This document shows, one piece after another, positions 12,674 to 33,200 of a stretch of 38,246 nucleotides of DNA. Source of the DNA: Chloroflexota bacterium (GTDB lineage: Bacteria > Chloroflexota > Limnocylindria > P2-11E); assembly GCA_005889295.1 (NCBI GenBank), contig VBEY01000235.1, forward strand, positions 1 through 38,246. The letters run 5' to 3'. The first letter of the stretch is position 1. Each line of letters opens with the position of its first letter. Below the pieces are notes generated by a model. The model worked only from the letters and a program-made list of their open reading frames with translations. It did not search any database and was not told the DNA's origin. Position numbers and translations under genes: made by a program.

Positions 12674-13513
12674 GTGCCGCTGAAGCAATACAAGGCGACA
12701 TCGCCGGTGCGTCGCTTCCGCCAATCGGCCTCGTTCGAAGAGCTGACCAAAGGCAAGAAGCCGGAGCGCAGCCTCACTGAGCGCAAGCTGCGCCATGCCG
12801 GCCGCAACGCGCAGGGCCGCGTCACGACACGCCATCGTGGCGGCGGCGAGAAGCGGAACTACCGCATCGTCGACTTCAAGCGCGACAAGGACGGGATCCC
12901 CGCGAAGGTGACGGCGATCGAGTACGACCCGAACCGCTCGGCCCGCCTCGCGCTCATCGTGTACCGCGACGGCGAGAAGCGCTACATCATCGCGCCGAAC
13001 GACCTGCGGGTCGGCGACCCGGTCATCTCCGGACCGGACGCCGAGGCGCGCGTCGGCAACTGCCTGCCGCTCGAGCACATCCCCACCGGCACGCAAATCC
13101 ACGGCATTGAGCTCCAGCCCGGTCGCGGTGCGCAGCTCGTGCGCGCCGCCGGCGGCGCAGCGCAGCTCGTCGCGAAGGAAGGCGAATACGCGCAGATTCG
13201 TCTGCCTTCCGGCGGCATCCGCGTCGTCCACGTCCGCTGCCGCGCGACGATCGGGCAGATCGGCAACGTCGAGCACGAGAACCAGAAGGTCGGCGGCGCC
13301 GGGCACAAACGCCACATGGGCTGGCGCCCAGCCGTTCGCGGCGTGGTGATGTCACCGCGCGACCACCCTCACGGAGGCGGCGAGGCGAAGTCGCCCGTCG
13401 GTGGTCAGGCGCAGACGCCGTGGGGCAAGCCGGCGATGGGCCTTAAGACACGCAACAACCCGCGCACCGATCGGTTCGTGACCGAGCGGCCGCCGAAGAG
13501 GAAGTCCAAGTAA
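12674..13513 (+). CDS. rplB: 50S ribosomal protein L2
   Basis: L2 (279 aa, normal) is a core 50S protein needed for subunit association and peptidyl transferase function. It starts at GTG 12674 and shows the [20 protein letters not shown] block, [22 protein letters not shown] and the C-terminal [12 protein letters not shown] loop with the conserved histidine. The stop TAA at 13511-13513 overlaps the ATG of a micro-ORF inside the repeat element that separates it from rpsS. Confidence 0.98.
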
Positions 13514-13602
13514 TGAAACGAGCGAGGAGCGGCTTTGCCGCGACGAAGCGAGTCACTCCGCCTGGGGCGTGTCTCCCGGCGCAGCCGGAGATTGAGCAAT
13601 GA
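13512..13602 (+). repeat. Intergenic coupling repeat, copy A (rplB/rpsS)
   Basis: First of four related elements. It contains the shared block GAGCGAGGAGCGGCTTTGC, a near-duplicate GCGACGAAGCGAG, and the hairpin TCTCCCGGC-GCA-GCCGGAGA, whose right arm holds the GGAG (13587-13590) placed 8 nt before the rpsS ATG. A 29-codon micro-ORF starts at ATG 13513, overlapping the rplB TAA, and ends at TGA 13600-13602, overlapping the rpsS ATG. AATGA is present at both ends (13512-13516 and 13598-13602), like a target duplication. Relative to the other copies it has one extra A (GACGAAGCG) balanced by one base fewer near the end, which keeps the stop aligned with the rpsS start. Confidence 0.8.
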
Positions 13603-14301: not shown

Positions 14302-14392
14302 GAATGGACCGAGCGAGGAGCGGCTTTGCAGCGACGAGCGAGTCAACCCGCCTGGGGCGCATCTCCCGGCGAAGCCGGAGATTGATCTAGTG
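14302..14392 (+). repeat. Intergenic coupling repeat, copy B (rplV/rpsC)
   Basis: Second copy of the element. It contains GAGCGAGGAGCG, the variable octamer GCTTTGCA, GCGACGAGCGAG, and the hairpin TCTCCCGGC-GAA-GCCGGAGA with GGAG at 14377-14380, 9 nt before the rpsC GTG. A 28-codon micro-ORF starts at ATG 14304, 2 nt after the rplV stop, and ends at TAG 14388-14390, overlapping the rpsC GTG (TAGTG). Its predicted product ends [11 protein letters not shown] flanking duplication is not clear here, unlike in the other three copies. Confidence 0.8.
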
Positions 14393-25071: not shown

Positions 25072-26097
25072 ATGACCCTAGTAGAGCTTGAGTACCCCAA
25101 GATCGAGCGCATCGAGGGCGACGAGCGTTACGCGAAATTCGCGTGCGAGCCGCTCCCGCCCGGATACGGCACGACCCTTGGGAACTCGCTGCGTCGCGTG
25201 CTCCTGAGCTCGCTCCCAGGCGCCGCGATCACGGCCGCGCGCGTGCGTGGCGTCGCCCACGAGTTCTCCACCATTCCCGGCGTGAAGGAGGACGTCGTCC
25301 AGCTCGTCCTCAACCTGAAGCAGATCCGTCTCCGCTCGTTCGCGAGCGAGCCGGTGACGCTCACCCTCGAGAAGTCCGGTCCCGGCGAGGCGACCGCCGC
25401 GGACATCATGACCACGAGCGAGATCGAGATCGTCAACCCCGAGGCGAAGATCGCCACCCTTGAGCCCGATTCATCGCTCTGGCTCGAGCTGACCGTCGAG
25501 ACTGGCCGCGGATTCCACTCGGCCGATCGCCGCGAGGGCCTGCCGATCGGAGTCATCCCGATCGACGCGCTCTACAGCCCAGTCAAGAAGGTGAACTTCG
25601 CGGTCGAGAGCACTCGCGTCGGACAGGTCACGAACTACGACCGCCTCATCCTCGAGGTCTGGACCGACGGGACGACGACGCCCGACGACGCGGTCGCGCA
25701 GGGCTCGCAGATCCTCGTGCAGCAGTTCTCGCTCTTCGCCGGGCTCACCCGGTCGCAGACCGCGCTCGCGCAGCCCGAGCGGACGAACGGCTCGGCGCTG
25801 CCGGCCGCCATCGCGGACATGCCCATCGAGGACCTCGACCTCCCGCAGCGGGCCTTCAACTCACTGAAGCGGCACGGCATCACCAAGGTCGGTCAGCTCC
25901 TGCAGACCCCCGACGACGAGCTCCTCCGCATGCGCAACTTCGGCAAGAAGTCGCTTGACGAGATCAAGGAGCGCCTCGCGGCGCGCGGTCTCATCGAGGC
26001 GCCGGTACGCGACGAGTCGTCGATTGGCAGCGACGAGCCGGTGGCCGAGGATGAGGGCGAACCCGAGACGAGCATGACCGAGGGCGACGAGAGCTAG
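25072..26097 (+). CDS. rpoA: RNA polymerase alpha subunit
   Basis: Alpha (341 aa) dimerises to scaffold RNA polymerase and contacts UP elements and activators. The N-terminal domain carries YGTTLGNSLRRVLLSSLPGAAIT (residues 32-54), VQLVLNLKQIR and SPVKKVNFAVESTRVG. The C-terminal domain at about 251-309 shows LDLPQRAFNSLKRHGITKVGQLL and RNFGKKSLDEIKERL. The last 30 residues form an acidic tail longer than in E. coli. The stop TAG overlaps the GTG of a micro-ORF in repeat copy C. Confidence 0.98.
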   Translation: MTLVELEYPKIERIEGDERYAKFACEPLPPGYGTTLGNSLRRVLLSSLPGAAITAARVRGVAHEFSTIPGVKEDVVQLVLNLKQIRLRSFASEPVTLTLEKSGPGEATAADIMTTSEIEIVNPEAKIATLEPDSSLWLELTVETGRGFHSADRREGLPIGVIPIDALYSPVKKVNFAVESTRVGQVTNYDRLILEVWTDGTTTPDDAVAQGSQILVQQFSLFAGLTRSQTALAQPERTNGSALPAAIADMPIEDLDLPQRAFNSLKRHGITKVGQLLQTPDDELLRMRNFGKKSLDEIKERLAARGLIEAPVRDESSIGSDEPVAEDEGEPETSMTEGDES

Positions 26098-26192
26098 TGC
26101 GCAAGGTTGAGCGAGGAGCGGCTTTGCGGCGACGAGCGAGTCGATCCTGCCGGAGGCATGTCTCCGGCGGCAGCCGGAGATTAATCTAGTGC
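26094..26192 (+). repeat. Intergenic coupling repeat, copy C (rpoA/rplQ)
   Basis: Third copy. GAGCGAGGAGCG, the octamer GCTTTGCG and GCGACGAGCGAG match the other copies. The hairpin here is a perfect 8-bp stem TCTCCGGC-GGCA-GCCGGAGA, with GGAG at 26176-26179, 9 nt before the rplQ GTG. Uniquely, an upstream GCCGGAG can also pair with the same CTCCGGC, so two exclusive hairpins are possible, one hiding and one freeing the Shine-Dalgarno. CTAGTGC flanks the element exactly (26094-26100 and 26186-26192). A 30-codon micro-ORF runs from GTG 26097, overlapping the rpoA TAG, to TAG 26187-26189, overlapping the rplQ GTG; its product ends GGSRRLI. Confidence 0.8.
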
Positions 26193-31756: not shown

Positions 31757-33085
31757 TTGACGAGGCTCTTCGGCACCGACGGCGTCCGCGGCGTCGCGAA
31801 TCTCGACCTCACCCCGGAGCTCGCGCTTCGGCTCGGCCGGGCGGCCGGGCACGTCCTCGGCGGGCCGGGCCATTCGGTGGTCATCGGGCGTGACACCCGC
31901 CGAAGCGGCCGCATGCTCGAGAGCGCGCTCGCCGCGGGGCTGTGTTCGGTCGGCATGGAGGTGCGCCTGGTCGGGCATGTTCCAACACCCGGGCTCGCGT
32001 ATCTCGCGAAGACAGATCAGTTCGTGGCCGGTGCCGTCATCAGCGCGTCGCACAACCCCGCGCCAGACAACGGAATCAAGTTCTTCGATCACCGCGCGCA
32101 GAAGCTGCCGGATAGCGTCGAGGACCGGATCGAGGGTCTGATGACCGGAGACGACACCCTTCCTCGTCCCACCGAGGGCGGCATCGGCCTGGTCGGTGAC
32201 TCCAGGGGACTGGTGAAGGAGTACGAGAACTTTCTCGTGGGGAAGGCGCCGCGGCTCGACGGCATCCGTGTCGCGCTCGACTGCGCGAACGGGGCCACGT
32301 ACCGCGTTGCGCCGGCGGTCTTCGCACAAACGGGTGCGGAGGTCCTCGCGTACTTCGACAAGCCCGACGGCCAAAACATCAACGAAGGATGCGGGGCCAC
32401 CGCGCCCGAAGCGCTCCAGCGACTCGTCGTTGATAACAAGGCCGACGTTGGTTTCGCATTCGATGGCGACGGCGACCGCGTGATCGTTATCGACGAGCGT
32501 GGCCGCGCGCATAACGGCGATTTCGTGCTGGCCCTCGCGGCCCGCCACTTCGTACGCAACGGCAAGCTCAACCCGAAGATCGTCGTCGGGACGGTCATGA
32601 CGAACGGCGGCCTCGAGTACATGCTCGCTCGTGACGGTGTCCGGCTCGAGCGCACGCAGGTCGGGGACCGCTACGTCTGGGAAGCCATGGAACGGCTCGG
32701 CGCGCAGTTCGGAGGCGAATCGTCCGGACACGTAATCTTCCGCGAGTACTCGACCACCGGTGATGGCATCTTCACCGCGCTCGAGGTGTTGCATCTCGCG
32801 CGCGCGGAGGGGCGCACGCTCGGGGAGCTTGCCGACGAGATGAAGTTCTGGCCGCAGGTGACTCGCAACGTGAAGGCCGCGCGCCGCCGTGAGTGGGAGA
32901 AGAACGACGCCTTCCGTGCCGCGAAGCAGAGCGCCGAGGCGAGACTCGGGTCCACCGGGCGCCTCCTGGTTCGGCCATCGGGGACCGAGCCGGTCCTCCG
33001 GATCACTGTCGAGGCGCAGGACTCCACGGTGGCCAAGAGCACCGCGAACGAGCTCGCCCAGGTCGCCGCGAAGGAGCTCGTCTGA
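31757..33085 (+). CDS. glmM: Phosphoglucosamine mutase
   Basis: GlmM (442 aa, normal) converts glucosamine-6-phosphate to glucosamine-1-phosphate for peptidoglycan precursors. It has RLFGTDGVRGVAN at the N-terminus, the active-site phosphoserine Ser98 in SASHNPAPDNGIKFF, the Mg-binding FDGDGDRVIVID loop, and sugar-binding GGEQSGH-like GGESSGHVIF. RPSGTEPVLRITVE closes domain 4. It starts at TTG 31757, preceded by CAGGA at a spacing of 5 nt. Its TGA overlaps the ATG of the micro-ORF in repeat copy D (TGATG). Confidence 0.97.
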   Translation: MTRLFGTDGVRGVANLDLTPELALRLGRAAGHVLGGPGHSVVIGRDTRRSGRMLESALAAGLCSVGMEVRLVGHVPTPGLAYLAKTDQFVAGAVISASHNPAPDNGIKFFDHRAQKLPDSVEDRIEGLMTGDDTLPRPTEGGIGLVGDSRGLVKEYENFLVGKAPRLDGIRVALDCANGATYRVAPAVFAQTGAEVLAYFDKPDGQNINEGCGATAPEALQRLVVDNKADVGFAFDGDGDRVIVIDERGRAHNGDFVLALAARHFVRNGKLNPKIVVGTVMTNGGLEYMLARDGVRLERTQVGDRYVWEAMERLGAQFGGESSGHVIFREYSTTGDGIFTALEVLHLARAEGRTLGELADEMKFWPQVTRNVKAARRREWEKNDAFRAAKQSAEARLGSTGRLLVRPSGTEPVLRITVEAQDSTVAKSTANELAQVAAKELV

Positions 33086-33197
33086 TGAAAACGAGCGAGG
33101 AGCGATGCGCTTCGCGCCCAGGGGCCCCTCCCCCTGCCCGCGACGAGCGAGACAACCCGCTGGGGCGTGTCTCCCGGCGAAGCCGGAGATTGAGCTG

Positions 33198-33200
<3 letters not shown>
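33082..33200 (+). repeat. Intergenic coupling repeat, copy D (glmM/glmS), expanded
   Basis: Fourth copy. GAGCGAGGAGCG and GCGACGAGCGAG are conserved, but the 8-nt segment between them is replaced by 35 nt (GC-rich, containing GGGGCCCC), a net gain of 27 nt or nine codons. The hairpin TCTCCCGGC-GAA-GCCGGAGA carries GGAG at 33185-33188, 9 nt before the glmS ATG. CTGATG occurs at both borders (33082-33087 and 33195-33200). A 37-codon micro-ORF starts at ATG 33085, overlapping the glmM TGA, and ends at TGA 33196-33198, overlapping the glmS ATG; its product ends [10 protein letters not shown]. Confidence 0.8.

Follow-up and report, generated by a model that had tools for sequence, protein, structure and literature searches.

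Copy C, which lies between rpoA and rplQ at 26108..26186 (+) of the window, the whole 38,246-nt stretch of DNA analysed here, quite probably results from a single insertion of a small, structured interspersed repeat that has spread within a single Chloroflexota family and that brings with it micro-ORF coupling. The tiny reading frame that runs through this element probably keeps the translation of both genes linked. The original prediction dealt with competing hairpins around the Shine-Dalgarno of copy C, and it missed both the 5' tandem-G.A hairpin of the element and its insertion into a stop/start overlap.

A dispersed repeat and its structure

The element is a structured repeat of ~80 nt to which all four copies in the window belong, i.e. 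copies A, B, C and D, before rpsS, rpsC, rplQ and glmS, respectively. Copy C was assigned by a CM match of 61.5 bits together with the alignment. About 13 good copies were counted in the source genome, which comprises 3.23 Mb in 339 contigs. The element was present in 28 of the 28 genomes searched in the family, with 1 to 27 matches each; named relatives include the Chloroflexi MAGs listed as isolates CF_86, CF_11, CF_8, UBA4730, and RIFCSPLOWO2_02_FULL_71_16. It was absent at E<=1e-4 from all 123 sampled genomes of the other families of the class. Rfam returned no match, either at the gathering threshold or at E<=3, ruling out a known RNA family, and the element is undescribed in the literature covered on small dispersed repeats, tandem G.A motifs and Chloroflexi repeats, a coverage outside which many subscription papers fall. 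In total, 106 copies were collected, 82 of which were aligned and 73 used in pair counts.

The 5' hairpin of copy C, HP1 (26108..26140, +), was defined by pair counts over the 73 copies and by covariation. It reads T + GA GC GA G GA GCGGC TTT GCGGC GA C GA GC GA G in copy C, with three tandem G.A motifs and one G.G mismatch, and its consensus is Y-GA-GC-GA-G-GA-GCGGC-UUU-GCCGC-GA-C-GA-GC-GA-R. Each of the six G.A cells is kept in 69 to 73 of the 73 copies, and the Watson-Crick pairs between them covary: the single pair is G-C in 49 copies and C-G in 18, and the others change from C-G to U-A and from G-C to A-U. Because the G.A cells themselves are near-invariant, we infer their pairing from the covariation of their flanks. 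The base just 5' of the element (base -1) pairs with the 3' foot of HP1 in 81 of 82 copies (C with G in 49, T with A in 24, T with G in 7 and G with C in 1), leaving one exception. The triple tandem-G.A hairpin is an unusual conserved motif that has no Rfam entry. In the family's other genera, a tandem-G.A HP1 is joined to a different 3' half (L051, L052 and L056), and HP1 may be a module common to several element subfamilies.

The small middle hairpin HP2 (TGCC GGA GGCA in copy C; 26148..26158, +; pair counts over 73 copies) has a GC/GC core in 72 of 73 copies and variable outer pairs. The 3' hairpin HP3 (26160..26181, + in copy C) is roughly 6-10 bp long, with a loop that is usually three bases, e.g. 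GAA. It is the downstream stem of the original prediction, which correctly gave it 8 bp in all four window copies; a single bulged C interrupts it in A, B and D, and only in C is it perfect. HP3 has a pair probability of 0.98 in copy C, and its covariation was reached in 0/500 shuffles. For the whole structure, examined in 24 nearly gap-free copies, nine pairs showed two-sided changes, amounting to 39 such cells against a shuffled mean of 10.6; this total was reached in 0/500 shuffles, and slid registers all scored far lower. As these same sequences served for drawing the structure by eye, the percent-paired figure is biased towards it, and the two-sided changes are less affected. Judged by these comparisons, the element contains two hairpins that covary, namely HP1 with its three tandem G.A motifs on the 5' side and HP3 on the 3' side.

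Copy D (33092..33195, +; HP3 33170-33189; CM match 33093-33194, 58 bits), upstream of glmS (ATG 33198), is a long-loop HP1 variant with an extra CAGGGGCCCCTCCCCCTG-like hairpin. This variant, which carries an inserted CAGGGGCCCCTNCCCCTG-like palindrome (33105-33137 in the window), also occurs in L008, L054, L128 and L143. The pairing of the segment upstream of HP3 is indeed weaker in D, as had been stated; decay was rejected as its cause because the variant recurs in these other genomes.

Insertion into stop/start overlaps

Copy C is flanked by an exact 7-nt repeat of the junction CTAGTGC (5' copy 26094..26100, 3' copy 26186-26192, +). In most relatives, the rpoA/rplQ junction is insert-free and forms a plain overlap or abutment (CTAGTGCC, GTAATGCC; TAGTG/TAATG), and CTAGTGC or TAATGC occurs there once, instead of twice as CTAGTGC does in the window. 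On the rpoA tree, the distribution of the rplQ copy requires at least two gains or losses. At the same junction, L076 (in genome G015) and L161 carry, after ATGA, other hairpin sequences that contain GCCGGAG and are partly repeated, which suggests other element families of the same habit. The site of copy A likewise has relatives with empty sites: most relatives have rpsS overlapping the gene before it (AAATGA or TAATG), and the junction is filled in the window and in one relative (G006). A genome of another genus (G018) has its own copy there (L279), apparently an independent insertion. In genome G001, the junction directly upstream of rpsS occurs twice (TAATGAGCAGCACTCATGAGTAG), and the two occurrences enclose no element (L282), possibly the footprint of a lost insertion.

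Further sites show the same arrangement. At L005, where a MerR-type gene overlaps a thiolase gene as ATGA, a perfect 12-nt repeat (AGGAGGCCAAAT) includes the native Shine-Dalgarno as well as the opening bases of this overlap, and at L116 rpsP and a KH-domain gene are split by the element in the same way, these four gene names coming from reading the translations. Repeats abutting the element at a score of >=8 were found at 8 of 59 independent sites, against 0.0 expected from mispaired flanks. The clear repeats are mostly 9-13 nt, and a recognisable one is kept at part of the sites only; missing repeats are accounted for by the divergence of old insertions. Comparison among relatives thus shows the element behaving like an insertion that duplicates about 9-13 nt of its target.

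The stop of the upstream gene falls within -15..+6 nt of the element at 42 of the 51 sites whose upstream gene is on the same strand, and 41 sites are sense to both neighbours versus 6 antisense to both, with gene strands called by frame GC content and no gene finder. The comparison of sites shows sense copies located at the upstream gene's stop, often where this stop overlaps the next start, and it shows the duplication leaving the upstream gene one intact stop and the downstream gene one intact start. Tandem copies occur at L102, L044, L050, L134 and L112, several of them with a period near 92 nt, corresponding to the element plus an about 12-nt repeat; by their sequences, they are the product of repeated insertion or of unequal crossing-over at one site.

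Micro-ORFs, the Shine-Dalgarno and competing explanations

All four window copies have a micro-ORF that begins at the duplicated start and whose stop overlaps the real start. In copy C, direct reading and translation gave a micro-ORF at 26097..26189 (+), the GTG of which overlaps the rpoA stop TAG (26095-26097) and the stop TAG of which (26187-26189) overlaps the rplQ GTG (26189). The micro-ORF of copy A (13519..13597, +; HP3 13572-13591), between rplB and rpsS (ATG 13599), spans 13513..13602 (+) and ends with a TGA overlapping the rpsS ATG; that of copy B (14310..14387, +; HP3 14362-14381), upstream of rpsC (GTG 14390), spans 14304..14390 (+) and ends with a TAG overlapping the rpsC GTG; and that of copy D spans 33085..33198 (+) and ends with a TGA overlapping the glmS ATG. 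The overlaps read CAATGA at rpsS, CTAGTG at rpsC and rplQ, and CTGATG at glmS. A conserved micro-peptide was rejected, because copies A, B, C, D and L005 read the element in different frames.

Across the family, 18 of 37 independent sites have a micro-ORF stop at the real start or adjoining it, compared with 1 and 4 in the other frames, and 27 of 50 copies have one within -2..+6 of the start, compared with 2 and 6. The distance from start to start is in phase 2 in 28 of 50 copies (p=8e-4), with lengths of 83, 86, 89, 92, 95, 98, 110 and 113 nt; once orthologous sites are collapsed, this excess weakens to 18 of 37 independent sites (p=0.04), the start codons having been picked by a heuristic. 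A coupled micro-ORF is missing from about half of the sites that could be tested, and coupling therefore does not extend to every copy.

The GGAG Shine-Dalgarno of copy C (26176-26179) lies in HP3, 9 nt before the rplQ GTG. GGAG in the 3' arm of HP3 was found in 20 of 27 copies with a start within 7 nt versus 12 of 70 others (p=2e-7), and, counted by site, at 13 of 20 start-abutting sites versus 10 of 48 others (p=8e-4). Because of this enrichment, HP3 is read as varying freely elsewhere and, where a start follows, as carrying the Shine-Dalgarno together with its partner arm.

In Escherichia coli and H. volcanii, an intergenic distance of about 20 nt almost abolishes coupling (PMC10666635). 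An 80-nt insert that left the genes uncoupled would therefore carry a cost and would cut rplQ off from rpoA. We propose the following scenario for copy C. Ribosomes ending rpoA would re-initiate at the first GTG and translate the 30-codon micro-ORF through the element, melting HP3, which covers the GGAG. Termination on the TAG that overlaps the rplQ GTG would then permit re-initiation at rplQ, helped by the GGAG, and HP3 would limit independent initiation at rplQ. The micro-ORF may in this way restore the rpoA-rplQ coupling otherwise broken by the 80-nt spacer. The hand-over of ribosomes and the melting of the stem are what we infer from the comparisons; they agree with the part of the original prediction in which the stem is opened by a ribosome finishing the micro-ORF, a part that gains comparative support from the position of the micro-ORF stops and from the GGAG enrichment.

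A neutral or selfish insertion, whose structure would be kept for mobility only and whose start-codon and Shine-Dalgarno patterns would reflect the few outcomes that are tolerated and not a device for coupling, is the strongest of the alternatives, though we consider it unlikely. Some copies are antisense or have no nearby start, tandem copies exist, a duplicated stop/start overlap would be tolerated regardless of what the element does, and an element plus a 12-nt repeat of about 92 nt in all yields phase 2 by itself. However, phase 2 is held across many different lengths, the GGAG enrichment is limited to copies abutted by a start, and the sense bias (41 to 6 sites) is strong, all of which argue against a neutral insertion. 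Less probable still is a cis-regulatory RNA, e.g. a protein-binding intercistronic regulatory or processing site, spread for regulatory use and with the tandem-G.A hairpin as the ligand site. Such a role would suit HP1, which is the best conserved part and is joined to other 3' halves in other genera, as well as the position of the window copies ahead of rpsS, rpsC, rplQ and glmS; the element also sits at unrelated genes, however, such as the thiolase (L005) and KH-domain (L116) genes, the occupancy of a given site differs among close relatives, and no Rfam family corresponds to it.

The translational switch of the original prediction is the least probable of these alternatives. In this switch, the left arm CTCCGGC (26162-26168) would alternate between an upstream GCCGGAG (26149-26155), leaving the Shine-Dalgarno free, and the downstream GCCGGAG (26173-26179), hiding it. 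All of these pairings exist in copy C, and in copies A and B the upstream segment pairs as claimed (GCCTGGGG/CTCCCGGC), with one mismatch and one G-T pair. The 7-bp upstream match of copy C is perfect, its isolated duplex is the more stable (-18.5 kcal/mol upstream versus -16.1 downstream), and it is retained at rplQ in three genomes (C, L035 and L064). The perfect match is otherwise confined to L111, however, and the upstream segment also forms a hairpin of its own, HP2, in which the upstream GCCGGAG lies. When copy C was folded in context, the partition function gave 98% downstream stem, the upstream stem being predicted to be rare (0.02). The covariation test over 73 copies divided the two stems in the same way: the downstream stem covaries strongly and is formed in nearly all relatives, whereas the upstream stem does not rise above shuffles in either register. 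In the C register, 44.6% of cells were paired (34/500 shuffles as high) and two-sided pairs were fewer than in shuffles; in the A/B register, 69.5% were paired, and 358/500 shuffles were as high. Arms of the same copy were hardly better matched than arms of different copies for the upstream stem (-8.27 versus -8.05 kcal/mol, sd 0.16), in contrast to HP3 (-13.98 versus -9.83 kcal/mol, sd 0.23). Compensatory changes were thus found in one of the two stems that a switch would need, and covariation, the mispairing test and the partition function together led us to reject the two-stem switch; as far as comparison and modelled folding indicate, copy C has no functional second conformation that competes with HP3.

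Mobilising enzymes and comparison with known systems

Family genomes appear poor in the usual transposition enzymes. The Y1 (RAYT) transposase (PF01797) was found in 0 of the 28 family genomes, with control genomes positive, and the reverse transcriptase RVT_1 in 1 of the 28, which are drafts of 66-97% completeness, a distribution that does not fit SINE-like movement. DDE_Tnp_1, the only DDE family searched in these incomplete drafts, was present in 6 of the 28 and in none of the window's genus. REP/RAYT, retroposon and IS4-type mobilisation were rejected, the partner genes being missing from most genomes; going by these searches, reverse transcriptase, Y1 and DDE_Tnp_1 do not account for the movement of the element. 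A broader reading, which we hold only tentatively, is that of a mobile family that prefers stop/start overlaps and duplicates them, each insertion carrying a micro-ORF and a stem-embedded Shine-Dalgarno that preserve coupling; its mover would be related neither to reverse transcriptases nor to Y1 or IS4-type transposases and would perhaps recognise the tandem-G.A hairpin HP1, either as single-stranded DNA or as RNA. Where genes overlap in essential operons, invasion seems impossible, and the element shows a way in, namely duplicating the overlap and bridging the gap by a micro-ORF whose end lies on the next start. The rplQ and rpsS sites offer natural before/after pairs for the loss and regain of translational coupling.

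The closest functional parallel is termination-reinitiation at ATGA/TGATG overlaps (PMC6728339, PMC10666635), which likewise involves a stop overlapping a start, a range of a few nucleotides and variable help from the Shine-Dalgarno. The native rpoA-rplQ and rplB-rpsS junctions are of this overlap type, and a stop that overlaps or touches the next start is seen at both TAGTG overlaps of rpoA/micro-ORF/rplQ and at the 18 of 37 sites; unlike in those systems, a mobile insert sits in the junction here, and coupling would be relayed via a micro-ORF with an overlap of its own. REP/BIME/REPIN sequences with RAYT (Y1) (PMC3116915) resemble the element in being repeated, short, hairpin-forming, extragenic, often intergenic and occasionally in tandem, whereas the element has target duplications, a low copy number, two different hairpins and a strong sense orientation, with no Y1 in the 28 genomes. 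The enterobacterial ERIC/RU repeats (PMC2759123) are likewise about 100 nt, non-autonomous, intergenic, MITE-like and readable as open frames. The element shares with MITEs a target site duplication, of 9-13 nt, but differs from them and from ERIC/RU in having no terminal inverted repeats, its consensus ends YGAGCGAGGAGC... and ...GAGATTGAGC not being reverse complements by inspection; it also differs from ERIC/RU in that its peptide is not conserved across the different frames and in being tied to stop/start overlaps. Mitochondrial genomes harbour mobile GC clusters and repetitive hairpin-forming elements (PMC2800124), which are likewise small and able to spread and have no known mobilising enzyme; the present element differs in residing on a bacterial chromosome, in its 9-13-nt duplications, and in its association with a Shine-Dalgarno and a micro-ORF.
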